Shown: positions 21,725-49,855 of the stretch, piece after piece
Numbering within the stretch: the stretch's first letter is position 1
How the letters are laid out: the number at the start of each line of letters is the position of its first letter
Assembly (NCBI GenBank): GCA_025361485.1
Contig: JANYLA010000089.1
Coordinates: 1-50,405, forward strand
Length of the DNA: 50,405 nt
Source of the DNA: Bacteroidales bacterium
Lineage (GTDB): Bacteria > Bacteroidota > Bacteroidia > Bacteroidales > Tenuifilaceae
Direction of reading: 5' to 3'
The notes under the pieces: generated by a model
Told to the model about the DNA's origin: nothing
The model's input: only the letters and a program-made list of their open reading frames with translations
Databases searched by the model: none
Made by a program: the position numbers and the translations under genes

Positions 21725-21755
21725 CTATCAACTGTCAACTATCAACCAGCAACTG
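21725..21755 (+). repeat. Heptamer array (solitary)
   Basis: Consecutive 7-nt units of the pattern CTRTCAA (CTATCAA, CTGTCAA, then a second CTATCAA and a CCAGCAA) in exact phase, between ispG and the response regulator gene. Confidence 0.75.
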
Positions 21756-23172: not shown

Positions 23173-23210
23173 TAGATCTAAAGCAGTTTTAAAAAACACA
23201 CCTATTCACT

Positions 23211-23259
23211 AATGCCTATTGCCTAATGCCTATTGCCTATTGCCTAATGCCTATTGCCT
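23211..23259 (+). repeat. Heptamer array (solitary, 7 units)
   Basis: Seven contiguous 7-nt units, each either AATGCCT or ATTGCCT. No spacer or flanking inverted partner was seen. Confidence 0.9.
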
Positions 23260-23342
23260 AAATGATATACATCACCCATTTCACTTAGCATTAAAAAAAT
23301 GTTTATTTTGCATCAATTTATAACCTTTTAAACCAAAAGGAC

Positions 23343-39258: not shown

Positions 39259-39286
39259 GAGTTGAGCGATAAGTTTTGAGTTGTGA
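39259..39286 (+). repeat. Heptamer array, left flank of four-helix-bundle gene 1
   Basis: Four in-phase 7-nt units of the form GNNNTGA (GAGTTGA, GTTGTGA and two variants), followed by an A-run. They are roughly the reverse complement of the right-flank array at 39680-39735. Confidence 0.75.
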
Positions 39287-39301
39287 GAAAAAAAAATAAA
39301 A

Positions 39302-39676
39302 ATGAGTCAGATAAATAGCTTTAAAGATTTGTTAGTTTACCAGAAAGCATATAAGCTGGCTATGGAAATATTTGAAATTTATAAAACATTTCCAAAAGAA
39401 GAAAAATACTTTTTAACTGATCAAATAAGAAGATCGTCAAGATCTGTTACATCAAATATTGCTGAAGCATGGGCAAAAAAACGATATGTTAAATCTTTTG
39501 TAAGTAAATTATCAGACTCATTAGGCGAAGAGTATGAAACTGAAGTATGGTTGGATTATTCAAGGGATTCAAAGTATATAACCACATCGCAGCACATTGA
39601 ATTAACAAATGGTTATGATGAGGTTCGAAAAATGTTAATATCAATCATCAATAATTCTGATAAATGGTGCCCATAA
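39302..39676 (+). CDS. Four-helix-bundle protein (S23/23S rRNA intervening-sequence protein family), copy 1
   Basis: The 124 aa product shows the family pattern: FKDLLVYQKAYKLAMEIF, then TDQIRRSSRSVTSNIAEAW, then the helix with SLGEEYETEVWLDYS. Family members form pentameric four-helix bundles and were first found inside 23S rRNA intervening sequences; Avd of diversity-generating retroelements is related. Free-standing copies have no settled function. This one lies between the synthetase and the export genes and is flanked by heptamer arrays in opposite orientation. Confidence 0.88.
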   Translation: MSQINSFKDLLVYQKAYKLAMEIFEIYKTFPKEEKYFLTDQIRRSSRSVTSNIAEAWAKKRYVKSFVSKLSDSLGEEYETEVWLDYSRDSKYITTSQHIELTNGYDEVRKMLISIINNSDKWCP

Positions 39677-39679
39677 TTT

Positions 39680-39735
39680 TTCTCATCTCTCACCACTCAT
39701 CTCTCATTTCTCACCTCTCACCACTCATCTCTCAA
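39680..39735 (+). repeat. Heptamer array, right flank of four-helix-bundle gene 1
   Basis: Eight contiguous 7-nt units (CTCTCAC, CACTCAT and close variants, consensus YWCTCAY) starting 3 nt after the stop codon. Confidence 0.9.
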
Positions 39736-39745
39736 CAATTTTCCC

Positions 39746-39753
39746 TACTTTTG
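39746..39753 (+). promoter_or_regulatory. -7 box of the capsule export gene
   Basis: TACTTTTG fits TAnnTTTG. A transcription start near 39760 would fall on the first in-frame ATG, which favours ATG 39775 as the real start of the export gene. Confidence 0.5.
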
Positions 39754-39774
39754 TTTTAAATGAATAGGATTAAC

Positions 39775-40548
39775 ATGAGTAAAAGATATTTAATACTTAT
39801 CGTAGCGGCAATTGGACTGCTCTCATCCTGCAACAAACGCGCACAGCTGCTTTATATCAATAATAACATTAGCAACGAAAACATAAAAACACCGAGCATA
39901 CCTCAATACACACTTAAAGCAGGAGATGTTTTATACATCCAGATTATTACTCAGGATCCTATCGTATCAAATCTTTTTAATAACCGTGGAATGGGTAGCG
40001 CTATTCAATCAAGCCTGTTTATGAGTGAGTCGACTAATTATCTTTATGGATATTCTGTTAGCGATTCGGGGTTTGTTCAGCTACCAGTACTCGGGAAGTT
40101 AAAGATTGCAGAGTTTACAATTAACCAATGTCGCGATTTAATCCAATCTCAAACCGAAAAGTATTTAAAGGATGGGATTGCTGTGGTTAAGCTACTTAGC
40201 TATAAGGTTACCATACTGGGCGAGGTAAGAAGTCCGGGGGTTAAAACAAACCTAAAAGATAATCTTACTATTTTTGAAGCCCTCGGCCTTGCTGGCGATC
40301 TTACCGATTTTGCACAACGAACCAATGTGCTCCTTTTACGACAAACGCCGGGTGGGATTAAAACCATTCGGGTTAACCTCCAGGACAAGAACCTACTATT
40401 CTCTGAGGCGTACTACCTCGTTCCCAACGACATTCTTGTTGTTGAACCCCGCAAAGGAAAACTTTTCAGCATGAACGCTCCAAACATTGCAATTTCCCTT
40501 TCCATTGTTAGCACCACTTTATTACTATTGAGCTATATTCTTAAATAG
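39775..40548 (+). CDS. Polysaccharide export lipoprotein, Wza-like
   Basis: The 257 aa product has a lipoprotein signal with lipobox LLSSC (Cys19), the polysaccharide export domain (YTLKAGDVLYIQI..., FVQLPVLGKLKIAEFTI) and an SLBB-type segment (YKVTILGEVRSPGVKTNLKDNLTIFEALGLAGDL), and ends with a C-terminal membrane helix (about 236-256). Wza-like proteins form the outer-membrane channel for capsule export. The Wzc-like kinase follows after a repeat-rich gap and another four-helix-bundle gene. An ATG at 39760 would add five residues. Confidence 0.9.
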   Translation: MSKRYLILIVAAIGLLSSCNKRAQLLYINNNISNENIKTPSIPQYTLKAGDVLYIQIITQDPIVSNLFNNRGMGSAIQSSLFMSESTNYLYGYSVSDSGFVQLPVLGKLKIAEFTINQCRDLIQSQTEKYLKDGIAVVKLLSYKVTILGEVRSPGVKTNLKDNLTIFEALGLAGDLTDFAQRTNVLLLRQTPGGIKTIRVNLQDKNLLFSEAYYLVPNDILVVEPRKGKLFSMNAPNIAISLSIVSTTLLLLSYILK

Positions 40549-40873
40549 TTGTTTAATAATTGATCAAAATCATTGTTTTCAACCCCTGATTTTATCGGCG
40601 GTTGTGAAATAATCTACCATCAATTGTTATATTTGTGTTGAGTTTTGTGTATTGTTTAATGTATATCCCGTTTTTACTGGTTTTGAAATAGATTAGAATA
40701 TTTTTTAATCTAATTATAAAACGATTAAAACTCAGCTACCAATGGCTTTGTCTAGCAGGTTTCCTGTGACTGACCAAGCGAAGCTGTGAAAAACAATTTA
40801 TTATTCCTGATTTCTTATTTCATAACTATTCTTGTAACTTGTATTTTTAATTGATTTACAGAGGTAGATAATA
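40549..40873. other. Gap with possible promoter and degenerate repeat unit
   Basis: No gene is seen. A -7 box TATATTTG (40628-40635) with GTTGTG upstream could start transcription of the downstream capsule genes. From about 40776 the sequence GACCAAGCGAAGC resembles the end of the 39-nt core described at 40895-40933, followed by loosely heptad-phased AT-rich sequence (40803-40844); this may be a decayed further repeat unit. Confidence 0.35.
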
Positions 40874-40975
40874 CCTAATTTCTAATTCCTCAAAAAGTAT
40901 CGTAAATACCAAGAGCAATCGAGTTGGCGGAGCAATTAGGAATCAGCAACCAGAAATTAGGAATCAGCAACACAC
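40874..40975 (+). repeat. Composite repeat unit, left of four-helix-bundle gene 2
   Basis: Three heptamers (CCTAATT type, 40874-40894), a 39-nt core (40895-40933) and six heptamers of the opposite sense (AATTAGG, AATCAGC and variants, 40934-40975) that abut the ATG. The core shares CGTAAAT, CAATNGA and TTGGCGNAGC at identical spacing with the right-hand unit. The heptamer arms can pair with each other, giving a hairpin with the core as loop. Confidence 0.88.
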
Positions 40976-41368
40976 ATGGCAATTACTAAATTCGAAGATC
41001 TGGAAATTTGGAAAGATGCACGAATACTGTGTCATAAAATCCGTTGGATTACTGAAAACACAAGTCTCTCAAAAGATTTTTCGATAAAAGATCAAATTCT
41101 AAGATCAAGCGGATCGGTAATGGATAATATTGCTGAAGGATTTGAGCGGGATGGAAATAAAGAGTTCATTCAGTTCTTATCCATTGCGAAGGCATCGTTA
41201 GGCGAAACAAGATCACAACTTCATAGAGCTTTTGATTCAGGGCATATTGATGAAACAAAGCATAAAGAATTAACTGATGACTGCTTGCTTCTTGCTCCAA
41301 GGATCGCAGGGTTCATTAACTATTTATTAAAATCTGAATTTAAAGGAATTAAGAAAAAACTTTTCTGA
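40976..41368 (+). CDS. Four-helix-bundle protein (S23/IVP family), copy 2
   Basis: The 130 aa product shows TKFEDLEIWKDARILCHKI, then KDQILRSSGSVMDNIAEGFERDGNKEFIQFLSIAKASLGETRSQL in family order. It is intact. The ATG directly follows a heptamer array and the last codons run into the next array (stop TGA at 41366-41368 is part of a 16-bp inverted repeat), so the gene and its flanks look like one element. It interrupts the export-to-kinase gene order. Confidence 0.88.
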   Translation: MAITKFEDLEIWKDARILCHKIRWITENTSLSKDFSIKDQILRSSGSVMDNIAEGFERDGNKEFIQFLSIAKASLGETRSQLHRAFDSGHIDETKHKELTDDCLLLAPRIAGFINYLLKSEFKGIKKKLF

Positions 41369-41458
41369 TTCCTAATTTCTCAAACATATGCGTAAATTGG
41401 AATATCAATAGAATTGGCGAAGCAACTAGAAATAAGAAACAAGGAATAAGAAATTTGG
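41364..41458 (+). repeat. Composite repeat unit, right of four-helix-bundle gene 2
   Basis: Same layout as the left unit and same orientation: three heptamers (TCTGATT, CCTAATT and one more, 41364-41384), 39-nt core (41385-41423) and five heptamers of opposite sense (AACTAGA, AATAAGA and variants, 41424-41458) ending just before the kinase ATG. Its inner 16 bp (41365-41380) are the exact complement of 40952-40967. Confidence 0.88.
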
Positions 41459-41464
41459 AATAAT

Positions 41465-43891
41465 ATGGACTACCAACCCCAACGACCCGATTATCCACCC
41501 CAAGAGGAAGATACGCTGGATATAAAAAAATATCTGTTTTTGGTGCTTTCAAACTGGTACTGGTTTGCGCTCTCAATTTTTGTAGGGTTATTCATTGGTT
41601 ATTTGGTAAACAGGTATTCGGTTAATGTTTATAGCATTCAATCAACGTTGATTGTACGCGATGATGAGAGTTCAAAGGGCTTTACTGGTGCGGAGAATCT
41701 TATCCAAGGGCTAAAACTGGTTAAGAATACAAAAAGTATACAGAACGAGATTGGAATTCTAAAATCCTACTCGTTGGCCTACCTGACCATATCAAAACTC
41801 GAAGAATTTAATATAACATACATTGGCGTTGGACGAAGAGGGGTTGTAAAAACGGAGTTATATACTCGTTCTCCGTTTATGGTTATTCTCGACTCATCAA
41901 AAAACAACAATGCGGGTTACCCCGTAAATATTACAATTCTATCCAACCAAAAGTATCTGGTTGAAATCGACAATAATTATGGCATTAAAAAAGAGGGAAA
42001 GTGGGGCGAGCCATTCAATAGCGAGCCATTTAACTTTACCCTAAAGCTCAGAAACCCTGATTTTATTTCAAATTATCCGATTGGAAGCAAGTTCTACTTT
42101 ACCATTAACACCCTCAACTCGCTTGCAAATTCGTATAAAAGCAAGGTTTCCATCGATCTCAACGACAAAAAAGGATCAATTTTAATTCTTACCTCTTCAG
42201 GCTTTGTTCCCGAAAAGGAGGCTGATTACCTGAATGCTCTTATGCAGGCTTATATCCAAATGGGGCTCGATGAAAAGAATAGAATCGCTGAAAACACCAT
42301 AAGTTTTATCGATTCGCAGCTCTCCGATATGACCGACTCTTTAAGTAGAGCCGAAAAAAGACTTCAGGATTTTAGATCGAGCAATAAGGTAATTAATTTA
42401 GGTAAGGAAGGAACGGTAATATACGATAATGTCCAACAGCTACAAGATGAACGGGCGAGAGCCGAGCTTAAAAGCAGATATTATGCTTACCTGAAAGAGT
42501 ATTTAAGTGGAAAAAAAGAATTAAAGGACATTGTGGCTCCTTCGGCCATGGGCGTTGAGGATTCGCAGCTTGCCGATATCCTTAGCGAAATGAGTAAAGC
42601 ATATATTGAGCAAGAAACGCTAAAGCTATCGGCGAATCCGTTAACACCGGGGCTGAATGCATACTCCTTTAAACTGGAGACATTAAAGAAAACGCTTGAC
42701 GAGAAGGTGAAAAGTCTAACTGAAGTGAACAAGGTAATTATGAGCGAGATAAATCGACGAATGGTTGATTCTGAAAAGGAGATGAGCAAAATACCATACA
42801 ACGAAAGGTTGCTAATTGGCTTTGAGCGCGAGTTTAACATGATTAATAAGCTGTACACTTACCTGAACGAAAAACGCGCCGAAGCGGCTATTGCTAAAGC
42901 TTCGAATATTGCCGACAATAAAATTCTCGACTATGCACTTCCTCAGAACGCAACGGTTATAAAGCCAAACAGGAAGATGATTTATATAAATGGTTTTATT
43001 GCAGGCGTTATGATTCCCCTACTGATTATTTTTGGACTAAACTTTTTAAATACCAAGATTACCGACTTAAACGATATTCACCGGGTAACATCAGCTGCAA
43101 TACTTGGTACAATAGGGCATAACAAGCTTACTGAAGACCTCCCGGTTGCAATAAATCTACGATCAACCCTTGCCGAGTCGTTTCGTGGGCTCCGAACAAA
43201 TCTACAGTACATTCTGTGCGAACCCGATAAAAAGGTAATTACAGTTACATCAACCGTTAGCGGTGAAGGAAAAACCTTTATTGCCGCGAATATGGCATTG
43301 ATAATTGCGCTTACTGGAAAGAAAGTGCTCCTGGTTGGCCTCGACCTTCGCAAGCCAAAGCTAAATTCTGTTTTTGGAATAAACTCCAATAACGGGATGA
43401 GCACTTACCTAATTGGTAAAGATGAGTTTAACGCCGTTATATTTAAAACAAAATACGACTATCTTTTTATTGCCCCTTCGGGGCCAATACCCCCAAATCC
43501 GGCGGAGCTTATAGGAATAACCCGCATGGATGATTTTATTGCTGAGGCTCGTAAACAGTTCGATTATATTATCATTGACACTCCCCCTGTGGCAGTTGTT
43601 ACAGACACCTTGGTGGTATCTCGACTAACCGATGCCCTTTTGTTTATTGTACGATTTAACTATTCCGACAAGGAGGTGCTGAACTTGGTTGAGAACATGA
43701 GAATCAGCGAATCCTATAAAAATATTGCTTTGGTTGTAAACGATGTTGTTACTAAAAGGCACTATGGCTATAGATACGGGAGCGGCTTTAAGTACGGGTA
43801 CCAATTCCCCTATGAGTATTCAAAGGAATACTATGACGATGAAGAATCACCATTAACGTTTAAAGATAAAATCATTCGGTTCTTTACTTAA
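41465..43891 (+). CDS. Capsule chain-length regulator and tyrosine autokinase, Wzc-like
   Basis: The 808 aa inner-membrane protein has a Wzz domain with a first helix (about 37-53), a long periplasmic coiled-coil region with a GNVR-type segment (NERLLIGFEREFNMINKLYTYL), a second helix (about 505-525), and a cytoplasmic BY-kinase domain: Walker A SGEGKT (about 599-604), Walker A' region VGLDLRKPKL and Walker B DYIIIDTPP. The tail carries a Tyr cluster (RHYGYRYGSG... and YEYSKEYYDDEE) for autophosphorylation. It works with the Wza-like channel in capsule polymer control and export. Confidence 0.94.
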   Translation: MDYQPQRPDYPPQEEDTLDIKKYLFLVLSNWYWFALSIFVGLFIGYLVNRYSVNVYSIQSTLIVRDDESSKGFTGAENLIQGLKLVKNTKSIQNEIGILKSYSLAYLTISKLEEFNITYIGVGRRGVVKTELYTRSPFMVILDSSKNNNAGYPVNITILSNQKYLVEIDNNYGIKKEGKWGEPFNSEPFNFTLKLRNPDFISNYPIGSKFYFTINTLNSLANSYKSKVSIDLNDKKGSILILTSSGFVPEKEADYLNALMQAYIQMGLDEKNRIAENTISFIDSQLSDMTDSLSRAEKRLQDFRSSNKVINLGKEGTVIYDNVQQLQDERARAELKSRYYAYLKEYLSGKKELKDIVAPSAMGVEDSQLADILSEMSKAYIEQETLKLSANPLTPGLNAYSFKLETLKKTLDEKVKSLTEVNKVIMSEINRRMVDSEKEMSKIPYNERLLIGFEREFNMINKLYTYLNEKRAEAAIAKASNIADNKILDYALPQNATVIKPNRKMIYINGFIAGVMIPLLIIFGLNFLNTKITDLNDIHRVTSAAILGTIGHNKLTEDLPVAINLRSTLAESFRGLRTNLQYILCEPDKKVITVTSTVSGEGKTFIAANMALIIALTGKKVLLVGLDLRKPKLNSVFGINSNNGMSTYLIGKDEFNAVIFKTKYDYLFIAPSGPIPPNPAELIGITRMDDFIAEARKQFDYIIIDTPPVAVVTDTLVVSRLTDALLFIVRFNYSDKEVLNLVENMRISESYKNIALVVNDVVTKRHYGYRYGSGFKYGYQFPYEYSKEYYDDEESPLTFKDKIIRFFT

Positions 43892-43963
43892 AAGGTGGAC
43901 GCTGGGAGGTTATAATTAGCACCAATTCCCCAAAAAAGTTATAAATATAATACAGATAAAAAA

Positions 43964-44012
43964 AGTTCAGAGTTCAGGGTTCAACCAACATATCGCTAAA
44001 CGCTAAACATTT
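43964..44012 (+). repeat. Heptamer array before fnlA
   Basis: Seven 7-nt steps in one phase, moving from AGTTCAG units (two exact copies) to ATCGCTA and AACGCTA units. No partner array was seen. Confidence 0.65.
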
Positions 44013-44046
44013 CTCATCCATTGATTCAATCAAATATCTTTTTCAC

Positions 44047-45051
44047 ATGAACTTCACTAACAAAACACTTCTGATCACTGGTGGATCTGGTTCTTTTGGG
44101 AATGCCGTTCTTCGTAGGTTCCTTGATACTGGTATTCAGGAAATCCGCATATTTAGCCGCGATGAGAAGAAGCAGGACGATATGCGTCACGTCTACAATA
44201 ATCAAAAGGTAAAATACTACATAGGCGATGTTCGCGACAAGCGTAGTCTCGATTACGCCATGTCGGGAGTAGATTTTGTTTTTCATGCGGCGGCTTTAAA
44301 ACAAGTACCATCATGCGAATTCTTTCCAATGGAAGCCGTTCGCACCAATGTAATGGGAACCGAGAATGTAATTGATAGTGCAATTGAGCATGGTGTAAAG
44401 AGGGTAATAAATCTAAGCACCGATAAGGCAGTATATCCAATTAATGCTATGGGTATATCAAAAGCTCTTGGGGAAAAAGTTGCAATAGCTAAGTCTCGGG
44501 TTTCTGGGACCAATGGTACAATAATTTGTAGTACTCGGTATGGGAATGTAATGGCATCCAGAGGATCTGTAATCCCTCTTTTCATTGACCAAATACAAGC
44601 AAATAAACCAATTACAATTACAGATCCTTCTATGACACGCTTCATGATGACCCTCGAAGATGCGGTTGATTTGGTGATATACGCTTTCACACATGCCAAT
44701 CCCGGCGATATCTTTGTACAAAAAGCACCAGCATCGACCATTGAAACATTAGCAAAAGCATTGATAGAGCTCTATGGCGGGATGGGAGAAATAAAAACTA
44801 TTGGTACTCGACACGGGGAGAAGGTATTTGAAACATTGGTAAATCGCGAGGAGATGTTGAGGGCAGAGGACTTAGGCAATTATTTCCGAATAAGTGCCGA
44901 TTCCAGGGATTTAAACTACGATAACTACTACTCCAAAGGCGAATCCGAAGTCTCTAGGATGGAGGAGTACACCTCGCACAATACCAAAATACTTGATGTG
45001 GAGGGGACAAAGAAGTTGTTGCTAAAGCTTGAGGAGATTAAAAATAGATAG
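44047..45051 (+). CDS. fnlA: UDP-GlcNAc 4,6-dehydratase/5-epimerase (FnlA/WbjB/CapE)
   Basis: First enzyme of UDP-L-FucNAc synthesis. The 334 aa product is an extended SDR with GGSGSFG (12-18), D126/K127 in LSTDKA and the M-x3-K variant of the active site (M135, K139 in NAMGISK), as in CapE/FnlA/PseB enzymes. The next two genes are the matching CapF and FnlC enzymes, which identifies the pathway. The end overlaps the longer frame of the capF gene, but capF itself starts 22 nt later. Confidence 0.9.
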   Translation: MNFTNKTLLITGGSGSFGNAVLRRFLDTGIQEIRIFSRDEKKQDDMRHVYNNQKVKYYIGDVRDKRSLDYAMSGVDFVFHAAALKQVPSCEFFPMEAVRTNVMGTENVIDSAIEHGVKRVINLSTDKAVYPINAMGISKALGEKVAIAKSRVSGTNGTIICSTRYGNVMASRGSVIPLFIDQIQANKPITITDPSMTRFMMTLEDAVDLVIYAFTHANPGDIFVQKAPASTIETLAKALIELYGGMGEIKTIGTRHGEKVFETLVNREEMLRAEDLGNYFRISADSRDLNYDNYYSKGESEVSRMEEYTSHNTKILDVEGTKKLLLKLEEIKNR

Positions 45052-45073
45052 CCAACAGCTAACCGCTCAAAAT

Positions 45074-46195
45074 ATGATTAAAGTCGGAATCACTGGTCAA
45101 TCCGGATTTATGGGAACACATCTGTTCAACTTTCTTTCTTTGAAGAAGGAGGAGATTACCATTATCCCATTTAACGATGAGTTTTTTCAGAGCCAATTAA
45201 AGCTCGAATCGTTCGTAAAGCAGTGTGATGCCATTGTTCACCTAGCAGCCATGAACCGCCATGACGATCCTCAGGTTATTTATGACACCAATTTAAAGCT
45301 CGTAAACCAGCTAATTGATGCCTGCGAAAGCACAAACTCGAAACCTCACATTCTGTTCTCATCTAGTACTCAAGAGGAGAAAGACAACCACTACGGTAAA
45401 TCAAAGTTTGAGGGACGACAACTTCTTGAAAACTGGGCAAAACGCAACAATGCTTCTTATACAGGATTAATTATTCCCAATGTTTTTGGACCATTTGGTA
45501 ACCCTTTCTACAACTCTGTTGTTGCAACTTTTTGTCATCAACTAGCGCATAATGAGCAACCATGTATTGAAGTTGATGGAGAGTTGAAGTTGATATATGT
45601 TGGGGAATTGAATCAAGAAATCTATCATTACCTCAGAAATCAGAAATCAGAAATCAGAAATCAGAAAATTTTGTATACATCGGAGAAAAAAGTTTCAGAG
45701 ATATTGAATTTGCTGCAAGGTTATAAAGAGAACTATTTTGAAAAGGGAATTTTACCTAACTTGAATGATCAATTTGAACGAAATCTCTTCAACACCTTTG
45801 TTTGCTATATTGATCATCAGACGTTTTTTCCATACCAACTGAAGATGAATATCGATGAACGTGGGACGTTTGTTGAGACCGTTAAGTTGAATAGCGGAGG
45901 TCAAATCTCATTTTCAACCACAAAACCCGGCATCACTAGAGGAAACCACTATCACACCCGAAAGGCTGAACGATTTGCGGTTATCAAGGGAAAGGCTCGT
46001 ATCGAGCTACGAAGAATAGGAACGGATAAGGTATTGATCTTTGATCTTGATGGTGACAAACCATCTTTTGTCGATATGCCCATCTGGTACACACATAACA
46101 TCATTAACGTCGGTTCCGACGATCTTTATACCATCTTTTGGATCAATGAGCCATTTAATGCTGATGATCCTGATACGTTTTTTGAAAAAGTATAA
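45074..46195 (+). CDS. capF: Bifunctional UDP-sugar reductase/epimerase, CapF/WbjC (FnlB)
   Basis: The 373 aa product has an N-terminal SDR domain (GITGQSGFMGTHL; Tyr/Lys in HYGKSKFEG) and a C-terminal cupin domain (about 265-373, with GNHYHTRKAERFAVIKG providing metal ligands), the CapF architecture that makes UDP-2-acetamido-2,6-dideoxy-L-talose. The start at 45074 (MIKVGITG) fits the domain start. Within the SDR domain a five-unit heptamer array (45634-45668) encodes RNQKSEIRNQK, a low-complexity insert close to the place where other CapF proteins have a compact loop. Confidence 0.9.
   Translation: MIKVGITGQSGFMGTHLFNFLSLKKEEITIIPFNDEFFQSQLKLESFVKQCDAIVHLAAMNRHDDPQVIYDTNLKLVNQLIDACESTNSKPHILFSSSTQEEKDNHYGKSKFEGRQLLENWAKRNNASYTGLIIPNVFGPFGNPFYNSVVATFCHQLAHNEQPCIEVDGELKLIYVGELNQEIYHYLRNQKSEIRNQKILYTSEKKVSEILNLLQGYKENYFEKGILPNLNDQFERNLFNTFVCYIDHQTFFPYQLKMNIDERGTFVETVKLNSGGQISFSTTKPGITRGNHYHTRKAERFAVIKGKARIELRRIGTDKVLIFDLDGDKPSFVDMPIWYTHNIINVGSDDLYTIFWINEPFNADDPDTFFEKV
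45634..45668 (+). repeat. Heptamer array inside the capF coding sequence
   Basis: Four exact CAGAAAT units and a fifth CAGAAAA, 35 nt in total. The reading frame passes through. Confidence 0.92.
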
Positions 46196-46200
46196 AAATA

Positions 46201-46283
46201 GAACGCAGATGACACGGATGCAACAGATAATCCCTGATAAAATTAATCTGTGTAAATCAGTCAAATCTGTGTCGTTTGTGTTC
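46201..46283. repeat. Long palindromic element between capF and fnlC
   Basis: GAACGCAGATGACACGGAT at the left faces AATCTGTGTCGTTTGTGTTC at the right (about 15 of 20 positions pair). Words such as CAGATGACACGGAT have about 9-bp spacing. Same class as 19609-19721. Confidence 0.75.
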
Positions 46284-46298
46284 CATTAATTCTCGAAT

Positions 46299-47438
46299 AT
46301 GAAATCTACGCTAAAAGTAATGACAGTTGTTGGGACACGGCCTGAAATCATCAGGTTATCAAGAGTAATGTCGTTACTCGACCAGCACCTCACCCAGGTA
46401 ATCGTCCACACCGGTCAGAACTACGACTACGAGTTGAATGAGATATTCTGGAATGAGCTGGAACTTCGCAAACCCGACCATTTTTTAAATGTTGATACCT
46501 CATCATTAGGAGCCACCGTTGGCGACATCCTTCGCAAAACCGAAGAGATTCTAAAGCTCGAGAAGCCCGATGCACTCCTTGTCCTAGGTGATACCAACTC
46601 CTGTCTCTCTGCTTATATAGCCAAGCGAATGCACATACCAATCTTCCACATGGAGGCAGGGAATCGCTCCTTTGATTTTAATGTACCCGAAGAGGTAAAT
46701 CGTAGGATTATCGATCATATTGCCGATTTCAATTTGGTTTATACCGAACATGCCCGGAATCATTTGCTTTCAGAAGGATTACTACATCGCCGAATCTATC
46801 TAACTGGTAGTCCGATGAAAGAAGTCCTCGACTACTACAAACCCAAAATCGACGCATCAAAAGTACTCGACAGTTTATCACTAACCGCTAACCGCTATTT
46901 TTTGGTTTCAACGCATAGAGAGGAAAACGTCGACAACCCCGATAACCTTCGTAAAATACTAACTGTTCTAAACAATCTTGCCGACGAATATAAACTTCCG
47001 GTAATTGTTTCGACACACCCAAGAACACGGAAAAGGCTTGAACAGCTTTCAGCCGTTAGCCTTCAGCCTTCAGCTTTAATTCGTTTCCTCAAGCCCTTTG
47101 GATTTCTCGACTACGTTCACCTGCAACGGCATGCACTATGCACCATTTCTGATAGTGGAACGATAAGCGAGGAGTCAGCAATACTATCTTTTCCCGCCAT
47201 CTCTCTCCGCCAAAGCATGGAACGCCCCGAGGCGCAGGATACAGGCTCAATAATCCTTACGGGTTTTGATCCCGATGTTGTATTAGATTCAATTGATTTA
47301 GTTATTGAGGAGCATAAAAACAATAAGATAAAGGCCATTCCTGTCGATTATCAAGTTGACAATACCTCATGGCGAGTGCTCAAGTTGATCATGGGCAACA
47401 CCAAACTTTCTAATCGGTGGCATGGAATAAATGAGTAG
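46299..47438 (+). CDS. fnlC: UDP-N-acetylglucosamine 2-epimerase-type enzyme (FnlC/WbjD/CapG)
   Basis: Third enzyme of UDP-L-FucNAc synthesis, non-hydrolysing 2-epimerase fold. The 379 aa product has VVGTRPEIIRLS at the start, VHTGQNYDYELN, HMEAGNRSFD, STHREENVD, and SDSGTISEESA near the end. Two heptamer arrays lie in its coding sequence (46879-46899, encoding SLTANRYF; 47043-47077, encoding QLSAVSLQPSAL). Its last 83 codons are nearly repeated 1.6 kb downstream, behind a Schlafen/AlbA_2-type gene. Confidence 0.92.
   Translation: MKSTLKVMTVVGTRPEIIRLSRVMSLLDQHLTQVIVHTGQNYDYELNEIFWNELELRKPDHFLNVDTSSLGATVGDILRKTEEILKLEKPDALLVLGDTNSCLSAYIAKRMHIPIFHMEAGNRSFDFNVPEEVNRRIIDHIADFNLVYTEHARNHLLSEGLLHRRIYLTGSPMKEVLDYYKPKIDASKVLDSLSLTANRYFLVSTHREENVDNPDNLRKILTVLNNLADEYKLPVIVSTHPRTRKRLEQLSAVSLQPSALIRFLKPFGFLDYVHLQRHALCTISDSGTISEESAILSFPAISLRQSMERPEAQDTGSIILTGFDPDVVLDSIDLVIEEHKNNKIKAIPVDYQVDNTSWRVLKLIMGNTKLSNRWHGINE
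46879..46899 (+). repeat. Short heptamer array inside fnlC
   Basis: Three 7-nt units: CACTAAC, CGCTAAC and a CGCTATT variant. Confidence 0.6.
47043..47077 (+). repeat. Heptamer array inside fnlC
   Basis: Five 7-nt units of the form CAGCYTT (CAGCTTT, CAGCCTT and variants), exactly 35 nt, the same length as the array in capF. Confidence 0.85.
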
Positions 47439-47462
47439 TACTAGAATTGACACCAACGGCGA

Positions 47463-48803
47463 ATGACCGAATCCCAAAATATTGAGTACAAGACCACATG
47501 GCGCGACGAATACCTAAAATGGATTTGCGGCTTTGCCAACGCCAATGGAGGAAAGTTATTGATTGGTATTGATGATAAGGGGCATATTGTTGGGGTTGAT
47601 GATCAAAAACGGCTAATGGAGGAAATTCCCAATAAGGTAGTTCAACATTTGGGCTTAGTAATTGAAACAAATTTACGTATTAAGAACAAAAAATACTTTA
47701 TCGAAATCATTGTTAGCCCAAGTAATCTGCCCGTTTCGTATCATGGTGTGTTTTACTACCGCAGTGGCAGCACAAAACAGGAACTCAAAGGTATCGCTCT
47801 TCATGACTTTTTACTTAAGAAAATGGGGCGATCATGGGATGGTATTAGCCCAGATAGTGCAGCAATTGCAGAAATTGATTCTACAACTATTCATCTCTTT
47901 GTTCGTAAGGCGCTTGATAGCAATAGAATTTCACCAGATGTAAATCCTAACGATATTAAAGGCACACTTCAAAATTTAAACCTGCTTAACGAAAACAATA
48001 AGCCCAAAAATGCGGCATTGCTAGTATTTGGCAAAAACCCTTTAAAGCATTTTACTGCGGCATACTTTAAAATAGGAAGATTTGGTGTGGCCGATCACGA
48101 TCTCATTTTTCAGGATGTTGTGAAGGAGAATTTACTTACCATGGCTGATCGGGTGATTGAGGTTTTAAAGTCCAAATACCTAGTTTCACCTATTCGTTAC
48201 CAAGGATTACAGCGAATAGAAGAACTTGAGTATCCCGAAGAAGCATTGCGCGAAGCAATACTCAATGCTATAGTTCACAAGGATTACACAGGTGCTCCTA
48301 TTCAAATGAGCGTGTACAATGATAAGCTAATTCTTTGGAATCCGGGCAAACTACCTGAAGACATAACCATTGAAATCCTAATGCAGAAACACCCCTCTCG
48401 CCCTGCAAATAAAAATATTGCTGAACTTTTTTTCAAAGCAGGATATATCGAAGTATGGGGAAGGGGTATTACGAAAATACTTAACGCATGCAAAATTGCT
48501 GGCTTACCAGCGCCTATTCTTGAGGAGTATGCTGGTGGGATTCAGATAACATTTCTAAAAAGCAAGACTGTCGTAGATAATGTCACTGATAATGTCACTG
48601 ATAATGTCACTAAAAACAGAATAGATTTGATTATTAATGAAATAAGATTGAATAACACTATTTCAATTGATCAGCTTGCTGAAAAACTTAATGTTACCCG
48701 ACGGACAATCATTCGCGATATTGATAAAATAAAAAACCAAAACTTAATTAAACGCATTGGTCCAGCAAAGGGCGGATTCTGGACTATTATTAGAGAGGAG
48801 TAG
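47463..48803 (+). CDS. Schlafen AlbA_2-domain putative ATP-binding transcriptional regulator
   Basis: The 446 aa product has an N-terminal AlbA_2 domain (ESQNIEYKTTW, then FANANGGKLLIGIDDKG at about 24-40), a GHKL-type ATPase region of the HATPase_c_4 kind (about 255-365, EALREAILNAIVHKDY, WNPGKLPEDI, EVWGRGITKI), a linker with three tandem DNVT units, and a C-terminal winged helix (about 390-446). Proteins of this layout are common in Bacteroidota and are often near mobile or defence genes; the exact role is unknown. It starts 24 nt after fnlC and does not belong to the sugar pathway. Confidence 0.85.
   Translation: MTESQNIEYKTTWRDEYLKWICGFANANGGKLLIGIDDKGHIVGVDDQKRLMEEIPNKVVQHLGLVIETNLRIKNKKYFIEIIVSPSNLPVSYHGVFYYRSGSTKQELKGIALHDFLLKKMGRSWDGISPDSAAIAEIDSTTIHLFVRKALDSNRISPDVNPNDIKGTLQNLNLLNENNKPKNAALLVFGKNPLKHFTAAYFKIGRFGVADHDLIFQDVVKENLLTMADRVIEVLKSKYLVSPIRYQGLQRIEELEYPEEALREAILNAIVHKDYTGAPIQMSVYNDKLILWNPGKLPEDITIEILMQKHPSRPANKNIAELFFKAGYIEVWGRGITKILNACKIAGLPAPILEEYAGGIQITFLKSKTVVDNVTDNVTDNVTKNRIDLIINEIRLNNTISIDQLAEKLNVTRRTIIRDIDKIKNQNLIKRIGPAKGGFWTIIREE
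48576..48611 (+). repeat. 12-nt tandem repeat encoding DNVT
   Basis: Three exact copies of GATAATGTCACT in the linker between the ATPase region and the winged helix. Copy number may vary by slippage without shifting the frame. Confidence 0.95.
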
Positions 48804-48812
48804 GCCGCTCTC

Positions 48813-49064
48813 TTTCCCGCCATCTCTCTCCGCCAAAGCATGGAACGCCCCGAGGCGCAGGATACAGGCTCAATAATTTTAACCGGTTTTGATCCCGATA
48901 TTGTTCTAGTTTCAATCGATTTAGCCATTGAGGAGCATAAAAACAATAAGATAAAGGCCATTCCTGTCGATTATCAAGTTGACAATACCTCATGGCGAGT
49001 GCTCAAGTTGATTATGGGTAACGCAAAATTATCGAATAAGTGGCATGGAATTATTGAACACTGA
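48813..49064 (+). pseudogene. Orphan 3' end of the UDP-GlcNAc 2-epimerase gene
   Basis: This stretch encodes the last part of an FnlC-like protein (SMERPEAQDTGSIILTGFDP to KWHGIIEH) without a start region. It matches 47190-47438 closely; blocks of perfect identity alternate with divergent ones. An ATG at 48840 is in frame, but the product would be a 74 aa fragment. It is probably the displaced original end of fnlC. Confidence 0.8.
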
Positions 49065-49103
49065 CAAAAAACAAGATAAAAGACAAAAGGCGAAAGACAA
49101 AGG
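49062..49103 (+). repeat. Heptamer array, left flank of four-helix-bundle gene 3
   Basis: Six 7-nt units such as ATAAAAG and ACAAAAG in phase, running from the end of the orphan fnlC fragment to the GTG start of the four-helix-bundle gene. Confidence 0.8.
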
Positions 49104-49253
49104 TGGAAGAAAAGAAAAAAGATTTGTGTGAAAGGTTATTTGAGTTTGCAGTAAGAGTAATAAAGTTTTTAAAAACAATTCCATATACTCCTGAAAACAA
49201 AGTTATTCGACTACAATTATCAAAATCAGCAACATCTTCAGGAGCGAATTATT

Positions 49254-49543
49254 CACCCTGTCAAATTGCTTCAAAATGATCGAAGGTTTTTATTACACGT
49301 ATGTACTAAGAAGCACGATAGATAATAATTTTTATGTTGGCTACACAAATGATTTGAAGCAAAGATTTGAGGCTCACAATTTTGGGAAAGTTCCATCAAC
49401 TCGACAACGAAGACCTCTAGAGTTAATATATTTCGAAGCATGCCAATCACAGCAGGATGCGCTACATCGTGAGAAGTATTTGAAAACCCATTACGGAAAG
49501 ATGTTTATAAGAAACAGGCTCAAATCTTATTTGACAGGGTAAA
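49254..49543 (+). mobile_element. GIY-YIG mini-element with 12-bp terminal inverted repeats
   Basis: ACCCTGTCAAAT (49255-49266) and ATTTGACAGGGT (49529-49540) are perfect inverted repeats at the two edges of the sequence that interrupts the four-helix-bundle gene. The whole insert is about 290 nt and codes for one protein. No target-site duplication is obvious. Confidence 0.8.
49276..49542 (+). CDS. GIY-YIG nuclease domain protein
   Basis: The 88 aa product is a single GIY-YIG domain of the UvrC/URI type: YYTYVLRS and FYVGYT give the two Tyr motifs, followed by DLKQRFEAHN with the catalytic Arg and DALHREKYLKTHYGK with the catalytic Glu. The ATG overlaps the TGA that ends the interrupted upstream reading frame (ATGA), so translation may be coupled. 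The right terminal repeat includes its stop codon. Confidence 0.92.
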   Translation: MIEGFYYTYVLRSTIDNNFYVGYTNDLKQRFEAHNFGKVPSTRQRRPLELIYFEACQSQQDALHREKYLKTHYGKMFIRNRLKSYLTG

Positions 49544-49790
49544 GAGTCTCAGGGAGGATCATCGAAAGCAGATTTTACAAATAAGGTCAGAATTTCTTTA
49601 CGAGAAATGAGAGAATCAAATTATTGGCTTAGAATTATTAAAAGAACAGTCGACGATGTAAATACCTCCGAAGTCGATTATCTAATAAATGAATCCGAGG
49701 AACTAAAAAAATACTAGGTTCAATCGTTCAAAAATCTAGACCATGAATTCAAAAGAAAACGTTAAAAACTAAAACAATTCCTATGGCTAA

Positions 49791-49855
49791 ACTTTTGTCT
49801 TTTTACTTTTGACTTCGTCGAGCTCGCTCCGCTCGGTTGTCTTTTGTCTTTCAAA
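49791..49855 (+). repeat. Heptamer arrays with GC-rich core, right flank of four-helix-bundle gene 3
   Basis: Four units (ACTTTTG type, 49791-49818), a GC-rich core CGAGCTCGCTCCGCTCG (49819-49835) that can fold on itself, then TTGTC-type heptamers (49835-49855). The arrays are T-rich and complementary in sense to the A-rich array at 49062-49103. The reverse complement of the core (CCGAG...CGGAGC) recalls the end of the core at 40895-40933. Confidence 0.75.

Follow-up and report, generated by a model that had tools for sequence, protein, structure and literature searches.

Why should small genes of one family lie between two facing runs of very short DNA repeats? This question is raised by a 50,405-nucleotide stretch of a Bacteroidales genome (contig JANYLA010000089.1, assembly GCA_025361485.1; the whole stretch is referred to here as the window), in which all three S23 (PF05635) genes are bracketed by short tandem arrays of opposite sense. 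A preliminary description had noted these arrays, inferred that protein and arrays form one unit, mobile or RNA-based, and compared the layout with that of REP sequences and RAYT. In this study, we asked whether the arrays are real, whether they generalize to other S23 genes, and what kind of element they may represent.

The S23 loci of the window

Inspection of the sequence, tandem repeat detection (TRF), lag-7 scoring, and profile searches gave the following features.

39302 to 39676 (+): S23 gene 1 (PF05635, 124 aa, 116.6 bits, E 7.4e-34; also bAvd PF22296 at E 8.9e-9, below that family's cut-off)
39259 to 39290 (+): left heptamer array of gene 1, G-rich sense, weak (lag-7 score 6.5)
39680 to 39735 (-): right heptamer array of gene 1, C-rich sense, strong (lag-7 score 22; TRF period 7/14/28)
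40976 to 41368 (+): S23 gene 2 (PF05635, 130 aa, 107.7 bits, E 4.2e-31)
40934 to 40975 (+): left inner heptamer array of gene 2 (lag-7 score 8)
41364 to 41384 (-): right inner heptamer array of gene 2, short, read by eye and overlapping the stop codon
40796 to 40821 (-): outer left array of gene 2, C-rich sense, the facing partner of 41428 to 41454 (score 18.5)
41428 to 41454 (+): outer right array of gene 2, G-rich sense
49104 to 49255 (+): N-terminal part of S23 gene 3, a broken gene (start by eye; HMM match to positions 11-50)
49256 to 49539 (+): 284-bp insertion with a GIY-YIG ORF at 49276-49542 (Pfam E 1.2e-17) and perfect 11-bp inverted ends, CCCTGTCAAAT/ATTTGACAGGG
49540 to 49717 (+): C-terminal part of S23 gene 3 (PF05635, 25.7 bits, below the cut-off of 33.8; HMM positions 52-106)
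49062 to 49103 (+): left array of gene 3, AAAAGAC type (found by TRF)
49791 to 49818 (-): right array of gene 3, CTTTTGT type (found by TRF; lag-7 score 9.5)

The left and right flanks are complementary at all three loci, with scores of 16 and 16 for genes 1 and 2 and 12 for gene 3. A blind scan of 314,378 bases of this genome (20 stretches plus the window) revealed 5 facing array pairs within 2.5 kb, and 3 of the 5 were exactly these genes (gap 390 for gene 1 and 695 for gene 3), although a mirror null (5 of 61 arrays) showed that single facing matches 2 kb apart can be chance. In the same genome, 6 of 10 testable S23 genes have same-period arrays of score 8 or more on both sides, compared with 3 of 231 control genes. 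These results confirm the arrays at the places where the preliminary description had put them, with three corrections. Gene 3 is not intact, being split by the insertion. The claim that the period does not differ between loci holds in the window only, as other S23 genes of the genome have period 8 (the locus L010) or 9 (the loci L008 and L009). The period is exact with regard to spacing, but the units are imperfect copies (77-85% matches for the arrays found by TRF).

Arrays at S23 genes of other genomes

S23 genes were found in 49 of 60 relative genomes and at 584 or more places of a species collection. In a first set, 77 of 142 S23 genes, but only 9 of 274 control genes, have same-period arrays on both sides, and flank complementarity of score 15 or more was found in 82 of 142 S23 genes, 4 of 274 control genes, and 1 of 142 mispaired flanks. 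This set comprised 142 of 162 hits (the others being truncated, having a flank under 150 nt, or being identical) and includes one doubtful hit on a very long branch. The score cut-offs were chosen after reading the first 60 loci, and we applied them unchanged to a second set of two groups (24 of 31 hits, and 26 of 52, 22 of the 52 having already been used). Here both-sided arrays were present at 15 of 24 and 14 of 26 genes and complementarity of 12 or more at 21 of 24 and 24 of 26 (mispaired, 1 and 0), although this set had only 18 control genes (0 of 18 with both-sided arrays of score 8). Taken together, 106 of 192 S23 genes, from many phyla, have same-period arrays on both sides and 116 of 192 have clearly complementary flanks (score 15 or more). 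Nevertheless, 45 of the 192 have complementarity below 12, and a few loci (L095, L155, and L268) have same-sense arrays.

The preliminary description's idea of a fixed 7-nt step is wrong, as the period is 6 to 10. The best period chosen separately on each side agrees in 105 of 115 cases (permuted mean 62, maximum 73) and tends to follow the protein tree, with 19 period changes against a shuffled mean of 31 (minimum 26 of 500). Left arrays are G-rich in 82% and right arrays C-rich in 89% of 104 each. The median is 4.4 units per arm, and AG is present in 58 of 74 units, compared with 41 expected. Unit order is not clearly mirrored between the arms (7 of 57 at 0.05, Wilcoxon p 0.051), so a strict stem is not required and an exact palindrome is not supported. 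A stop-codon barrier was also considered, but sense stops (90 of 143 left units, 74 expected) and antisense stops (63, 39 expected) are enriched on both strands, which is not specific.

Of the 142 loci, 114 could be classified by context (21 lay at edges and 7 far); in tandem slots the sense ratio of S23 genes is 91:3, against 303:51 for other genes after removal of S23 genes from the controls (p 0.001). The arrays do not appear to be a general property of small mobile genes, as both-sided arrays were present at 0 of 35 Y1_Tnp and 0 of 19 lone GIY-YIG genes (2 of 35 and 1 of 19 at the lower cut-off of 6). These genes were found by a motif search of fetched loci rather than by HMM, and two of the 32 Y1 loci were added because they had already shown inverted flanks. 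No rRNA match was present at any of 40 S23 loci scanned, window genes included, none of 5 S23 proteins matched a defence model in PADLOC, and no relatives of the S23 protein of L001, a locus of the window's genome, were confirmed in viral contigs.

Gene-less arrays and related sites

Arrays without an S23 gene also occur, two of them in the window.

23201 to 23260 (no strand assigned): gene-less array CTATTGCCTAATGCC, the same unit as the S23 element at L002 in this genome (own S23 match 37.5, above all 200 foreign subsets)
21725 to 21753 (no strand assigned): gene-less array CTATCAACTGTCAAC, with a unit like that of L003, although foreign S23 arrays match as well (foreign subsets at least as good in 49%)

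Six of 16 arrays tested away from S23 match the S23 units of their own genome above all 200 foreign subsets. Arrays with the L001 unit gave 34 matches in the window's genome (including the L001 element's own arrays), 13 in G003, a genome that holds the orthologous S23, 6 and 1 in two congeners, and 0 in 27 others. However, G004, another relative, has 37 matches to L010-type arrays in about 32 places but no L010-like S23 (best 26% identity). These counts are not full, as only part of the candidates was scored (30 of 49 in the window's genome and 40 of 149 in G004). A 92-bp sequence around L002 occurs only twice, both beside that S23, giving no support for a dispersed mini-element.

Across 37 genomes, 1 array was found in 42,474 non-coding bases of 11 S23-free genomes, compared with 52 in 182,738 bases of 26 S23-bearing ones (Spearman 0.45, p 0.005). 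Arrays at contig ends may have an S23 gene beyond the end, but the contrast stays when 600 nt at each end are cut off (1 in 32 kb against 43 in 132 kb). It should be noted that 19 of the 52 arrays come from one genome, that within the window's family array number does not track S23 number (Spearman 0.14, p 0.56, 20 genomes), and that the S23-free genomes are all from other families, so lineage may explain the contrast.

No S23 is present at the gene-1 and gene-2 sites in the relatives G001-G004, nor at the L010 site in G002-G004. At the gene-1 site, relatives show gene-less hairpins; thus, one site can hold an S23 copy in one species and a gene-less hairpin in the next. No target-site duplication was seen, but at gene 1 the sites of relatives hold other hairpins, so that there is no clean empty site and the comparison is inconclusive. 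The paralogues L008 and L009 share only gene plus arrays, but several S23 loci persist vertically at one site, more like residents than active jumpers.

A candidate gene-and-repeat system

The best explanation, to which we assign a probability of about 0.55, is that S23 genes and their facing arrays form one genetic unit, probably a selfish repeat-and-protein element that lives in gaps between co-directional genes. We found no description of this pairing in the literature searched. We infer that the S23 ring recognizes the array, about four to five units per arm with a step of 7 (6 to 10) nt and often an AG core, in the way TRAP meters spaced triplets; the solved structures 2GSC and 2RLD hold five chains each, although the S23 median net charge is only +2. 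We also infer that the coding copy is the source and the gene-less hairpins are derivatives, as RAYT is to REP, and that in the transcript the arrays pair and hold the S23 ORF in the loop, so that the host message tolerates the insert and RNase III may release it. A closing stem is predicted in both elements folded (z -4.3 and -4.5). It is no more than a guess that the arrays are copied by template switching or reverse transcription with host enzymes; S23 has no known catalytic domain.

A more far-reaching reading, which we regard as doubtful, is that the S23 ring is a step-metering protein that recognizes, and with host polymerases builds and spreads, arrays whose step is set by the protein clade. 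The intergenic heptamer repeats reported for decades in cyanobacteria, xanthomonads, Beggiatoaceae, and Bacteroidota would then be footprints of one ancient, bacteria-wide selfish system whose autonomous copy is the S23 gene between facing arrays. If the protein sets the step, it would be a new way in which a protein shapes DNA repeats.

Among the alternatives, the best, although unlikely, is an RNA-only element, an mRNA relative of the 23S rRNA intervening sequence (IVS), in which the arrays are simply an indel-tolerant stem cut by RNase III to release the S23 message, the protein does not act on the arrays, and gene-less hairpins are deletion relics. The known IVS layout with in vitro excision by RNase III in Coxiella (PMC4990558), the sense bias, the predicted folds, and the gene-less hairpins at the gene-1 site are in favour of this view. 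However, it does not explain why the period tends to follow the protein clade, why one-sided arrays with the S23 unit are dispersed, or why the arms share units but not clearly unit order, and none of the 40 loci scanned shows an rRNA match. Less likely still is a domesticated operon regulator, in which the ring binds the left array in the leader like TRAP, competing with pairing to the right array, and so tunes its own expression and that of the next gene; at least two broken S23 genes keep arrays (L011, and L194 with an in-frame stop), and dispersed gene-less arrays are not explained. Finally, the possibility that S23 genes merely land in slippage-prone repeats whose arms are kept alike by quasi-palindrome correction, although consistent with arrays lacking S23 in the same genome, with shared units without clearly kept order, and with the lack of a dose effect within the family, is largely refuted for the paired arrays, because insertion into a pre-existing array would leave both halves in the same sense (complementary score of 15 or more in 82 of 142 against direct 23 of 142) and the S23-free genomes sampled have almost no non-coding arrays.

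Intergenic tandem heptamers are already known as STRR of cyanobacteria (PMC2670836), GGGAATC of Xanthomonas and GGGGA(C/T)T of Nostoc (PMC4692102), and TAACTGA of Beggiatoaceae and others (PMC4679880). In Xanthomonas they mostly have four units, form 70-75 convergent pairs per genome, and lie close to the upstream gene, and a Xanthomonas S23 (XCC0516) is solved as 2GSC; no hit above 59% identity to XCC0516 was found in the 369 gammaproteobacterial genomes searched, which included no Xanthomonas genome. The main texts of PMC4679880 and PMC4692102 mention neither S23 nor 'four helix'. On cyanobacterial and Riemerella plasmids, all 8 S23 loci read have best period 7, and 6 of 8 have complementary flanks (score 12 or more), L268 having same-sense arrays. 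Our data offer a possible genetic partner for repeats that the papers seen on Xanthomonas, Nostoc, and Beggiatoaceae report without a known cause, and a first context-based role for a family of unknown function.

The 23S rRNA IVS shares with these elements the protein family and an ORF in the loop of complementary ends, but here the sites are intergenic among protein genes (no rRNA match at the 40 loci scanned) and the ends are phased arrays. Avd of diversity-generating retroelements probably has a related pentameric four-helix-bundle fold, and gene 1 matches bAvd weakly, but no reverse transcriptase was found among the 10 window proteins scanned. TRAP is a proposed analogy only; it appears to be an 11-mer ring of unrelated fold that reads triplets with an AG core at a spacing of 2-3 nt, with no facing second array. 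The layout is comparable to that of REP and RAYT, in which a single gene is flanked by inverted copies of a short repeat that is also dispersed, gene-less, in intergenic DNA of the same genome, with G004 as an exception here. RAYT is typically a Y1/HUH nuclease and REPs are typically single palindromes, whereas here the protein matches no nuclease model (gene 2 matches only PF05635, and gene 1 PF05635 and weakly bAvd) and the repeats are tandem 6-10 nt arrays; the Y1_Tnp genes examined have inverted flanks (9 of 35) but no arrays on both sides.

Facing arrays around S23 genes in this genome and in others

In this study, we examined contig C98, which belongs to a 3.49-Mb draft genome and carries three S23 matches, together with an insertion that splits the third of them:

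39302-39676, S23 match (gene 1)
40976-41368, S23 match (gene 2)
about 49104-49717, broken S23 copy (gene 3)
49256-49539, 284-bp insertion in gene 3 with perfect 11-bp inverted ends (CCCTGTCAAAT/ATTTGACAGGG) and a GIY-YIG ORF

As stated in the preliminary description, all three lie between short tandem arrays of opposite sense, although the units are imperfect copies. The insertion in gene 3 looks like a small mobile element of its own. A blind scan of 314,378 bases of this genome for arrays of 6-10 nt with a reverse-complementary partner within 2.5 kb gave five pairs, of which three are exactly these genes (gaps 390, 606, and 695), while the other two have gaps near 2 kb and may be chance. Heptamers are also found inside a coding frame, with five perfect TCAGAAA units (45633-45667) in an epimerase gene with a C-terminal domain (45029-46195), just after its first domain.

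The genome holds 11 PF05635 matches. By eye most of these have facing arrays, but, whereas the preliminary description had taken the 7-bp period to be the same at each locus, not all are of period 7: the S23 locus L010 has a period of 8 and the loci L008 and L009 have 9. By score, six of 10 testable genes have same-period arrays of score 8 or more on both sides, against three of 231 other genes. At a further S23 locus of this genome, L002 (contig C150), a 92-bp sequence is present in direct copies on both sides of the gene (58058-58149 and 58594-58685), which are 100% identical and found nowhere else in the genome.

Of 60 relatives, 49 carry S23. A species-wide scan gave 80 loci from Bacteroidota, Clostridia, Planctomycetes, Acidobacteria, Nitrospirae, Chloroflexi, CPR bacteria, and others, the best of at least 584 relatives. 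Nevertheless, S23 is not everywhere, as 60 of 369 gammaproteobacterial genomes matched the 2GSC protein. In 142 S23 genes with full flanks, both-sided arrays occur in 77 (control 9 of 274) and complementary flanks of score 15 or more in 82 (control 4 of 274; S23 flanks mispaired at random 1 of 142), while direct-sense similarity reaches 15 in 23 (control 3 of 274). A second set scored with unchanged cut-offs agrees, with both-sided arrays in 15 of 24 genes from Gammaproteobacteria and 14 of 26 from other phyla, and complementarity of 12 or more in 21 and 24 (mispaired 1 and 0), although its own controls are few (0 of 18). Of eight S23 loci read from cyanobacterial and Riemerella plasmids, two of them near-identical, all have best period 7 and six have complementary flanks of 12 or more; of the others, L264 reaches 11.5 and L268 (1501-1860 of a Pseudanabaena plasmid locus) has long heptamer arrays in the same sense on both sides and sits between cas6 and cas4. 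Y1_Tnp genes, the RAYT class, have inverted flanks in 9 of 35 but no both-sided arrays (0 of 35), and lone GIY-YIG genes, which include L245, have inverted flanks of score 15 in 5 of 19 and both-sided arrays in 0 of 19. The test therefore sees ordinary inverted ends, and the phased arrays go with S23. Lone GIY-YIG genes also occur as tandem duplicates about 354-422 bp apart (for example, in genome G022, contig C100, 8076-9132).

Period and evolution of the arrays

When the best period was chosen on each side separately, the two sides agreed in 105 of 115 cases (permuted mean 62, maximum 73). A period of 7 dominates (79), followed by 8 (15), 9 (5), 10 (4), and 6 and 12 (1 each). On a tree of 142 proteins, the period of 116 labelled rows changes 19 times against 31 for shuffled labels (minimum 26), although the tree has few columns and many unresolved forks. 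The arms have a median of 4.4 and 4.3 units. Left arrays are G-rich in 82% and right arrays C-rich in 89% of 104 each, and AG occurs in 58 of 74 thinned units where 41 were expected. The solved relatives 2GSC and 2RLD have five chains each, and the Xanthomonas protein is described as a homopentameric toroid (PMC4990558).

In six orthologous Flavobacteriaceae loci with homologous flanks (L081, L082, L085, L087, L101, and L113), the unit drifts from CAAAGGTT to CTGAGTAG to AATCTAAG; period 8 is best in all six, and complementarity scores range from 9.5 to 22.5. The slot listed for Flavobacterium columnare as guanylate kinase, four helix bundle protein, and nicotinate-nucleotide adenylyltransferase (PMC5524665) resembles that of the S23 loci L102, L108, L116, and L139, judging from our reading of the start of the downstream protein rather than from a search. 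Unit order is not clearly mirrored between the arms (7 of 57 at 0.05, Wilcoxon p 0.051), so the arms are made of the same unit without being exact palindromes.

Site occupancy, gene-less arrays, and position in transcripts

The four congeners examined (G001-G004) have no S23 at the gene-1 and gene-2 sites, and G002-G004 have none at the L010 site, where G001 has one, as checked with the HMM. At the gene-1 site the congeners are not bare: G004 has a gene-less hairpin of GTTGACT-type heptamers and, by eye, the others have similar though weaker ones. At the L010 site, G002-G004 (loci L175, L174, and L173, respectively) have gene-less CGCAAAG-type hairpins, while at the gene-2 site we saw no heptamer arrays in the congeners. 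L008 and L009, whose proteins are 84% identical and lie in one genome, share DNA from 14 nt before the start to about 52 nt after the stop and nothing outside. One Desulfobacteraceae genome (G061, the MAG of locus L084) has 25 S23 matches in 4.4 Mb, some of them pieces of one broken gene, with similar copies at different sites, which is perhaps a burst and decay. No target duplication was found, but hairpins occupy the gene-1 site in the congeners compared, which leaves no clean empty site there.

Six of 16 arrays away from S23 in this genome match its own S23 units better than all 200 foreign subsets of equal size, whereas the other ten do not. Arrays of the unit of L001, an S23 element of this genome, give 34 matches in the genome itself, two of them the L001 element, and 13 in G003, which has the orthologous S23; there are 6, 1, and 0 in the other congeners and 0 in the remaining 26 genomes. 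Against this, G004 has 37 matches to L010-type arrays in about 32 places, some as hairpins, without an L010-like gene. When non-coding arrays of 5-13 nt period were counted in sampled stretches, 11 S23-free genomes of the order had 1 in 42,474 non-coding bases, while genomes with 1-2 S23 had 11.6, those with 3-7 had 25.7, and those with 8 or more had 36.7 per 100 kb, the last value falling to 19.5 without G025. G025 has 20 S23 matches and 19 non-coding arrays in 8.2 kb of non-coding DNA sampled (L413-L415), far above the others, and by eye its gene-less period-8 and period-9 arrays carry the units of its S23 genes L055 and L025. The Spearman correlation over 37 genomes is 0.45 (p 0.005) but within the family only 0.14 (p 0.56, 20 genomes), and arrays in coding DNA are flat across the sets (6, 3, 5, 6, and 4). 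So arrays go with the presence of S23, not clearly with its number, and lineage is a possible confounder.

In slots whose two neighbours share a strand, S23 is in sense 91 times and antisense three times, against 303 and 51 for other genes (p 0.001) and 47 and 20 for small genes (p 2e-6), S23 having been removed from both. The left array begins a median 5 nt after the upstream stop codon (n 129) and the right array ends a median 7 nt before the next start (n 81). The RNAs of gene 1 and of L001, the two that were folded, are predicted to form the arrays into a closing stem with the S23 ORF in the loop (z -4.3 and -4.5; 0 of 100 shuffles as stable). None of 40 S23 loci scanned shows an rRNA match.

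A probable mode of action and comparison with known systems

Association, co-variation, and shared boundaries show that gene and arrays are one unit. The coding form is probably the source of the gene-less forms, which is supported by presence and unit match but not proven, G004 being an exception. Given the clade-bound period, the unit number near five, the AG core, and the polarity, it is inferred that the ring protein probably reads the array at its fixed step. Template switching on the facing arms or reverse transcription by host enzymes can only be guessed at as the means of copying.

No description of this pairing was found in the open-access literature searched (including PMC4679880; PMC4692102; PMC4990558; PMC5524665; PMC2670836), preprints and subscription papers not being covered, so the pairing is likely, although not certain, to be new. 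We consider it distinct in kind, because the protein fold and the repeat type differ from those of REP/RAYT and the sites differ from those of the rRNA IVS, although the unit may be placed with the IVS if more weight is given to the shared S23 ORF.
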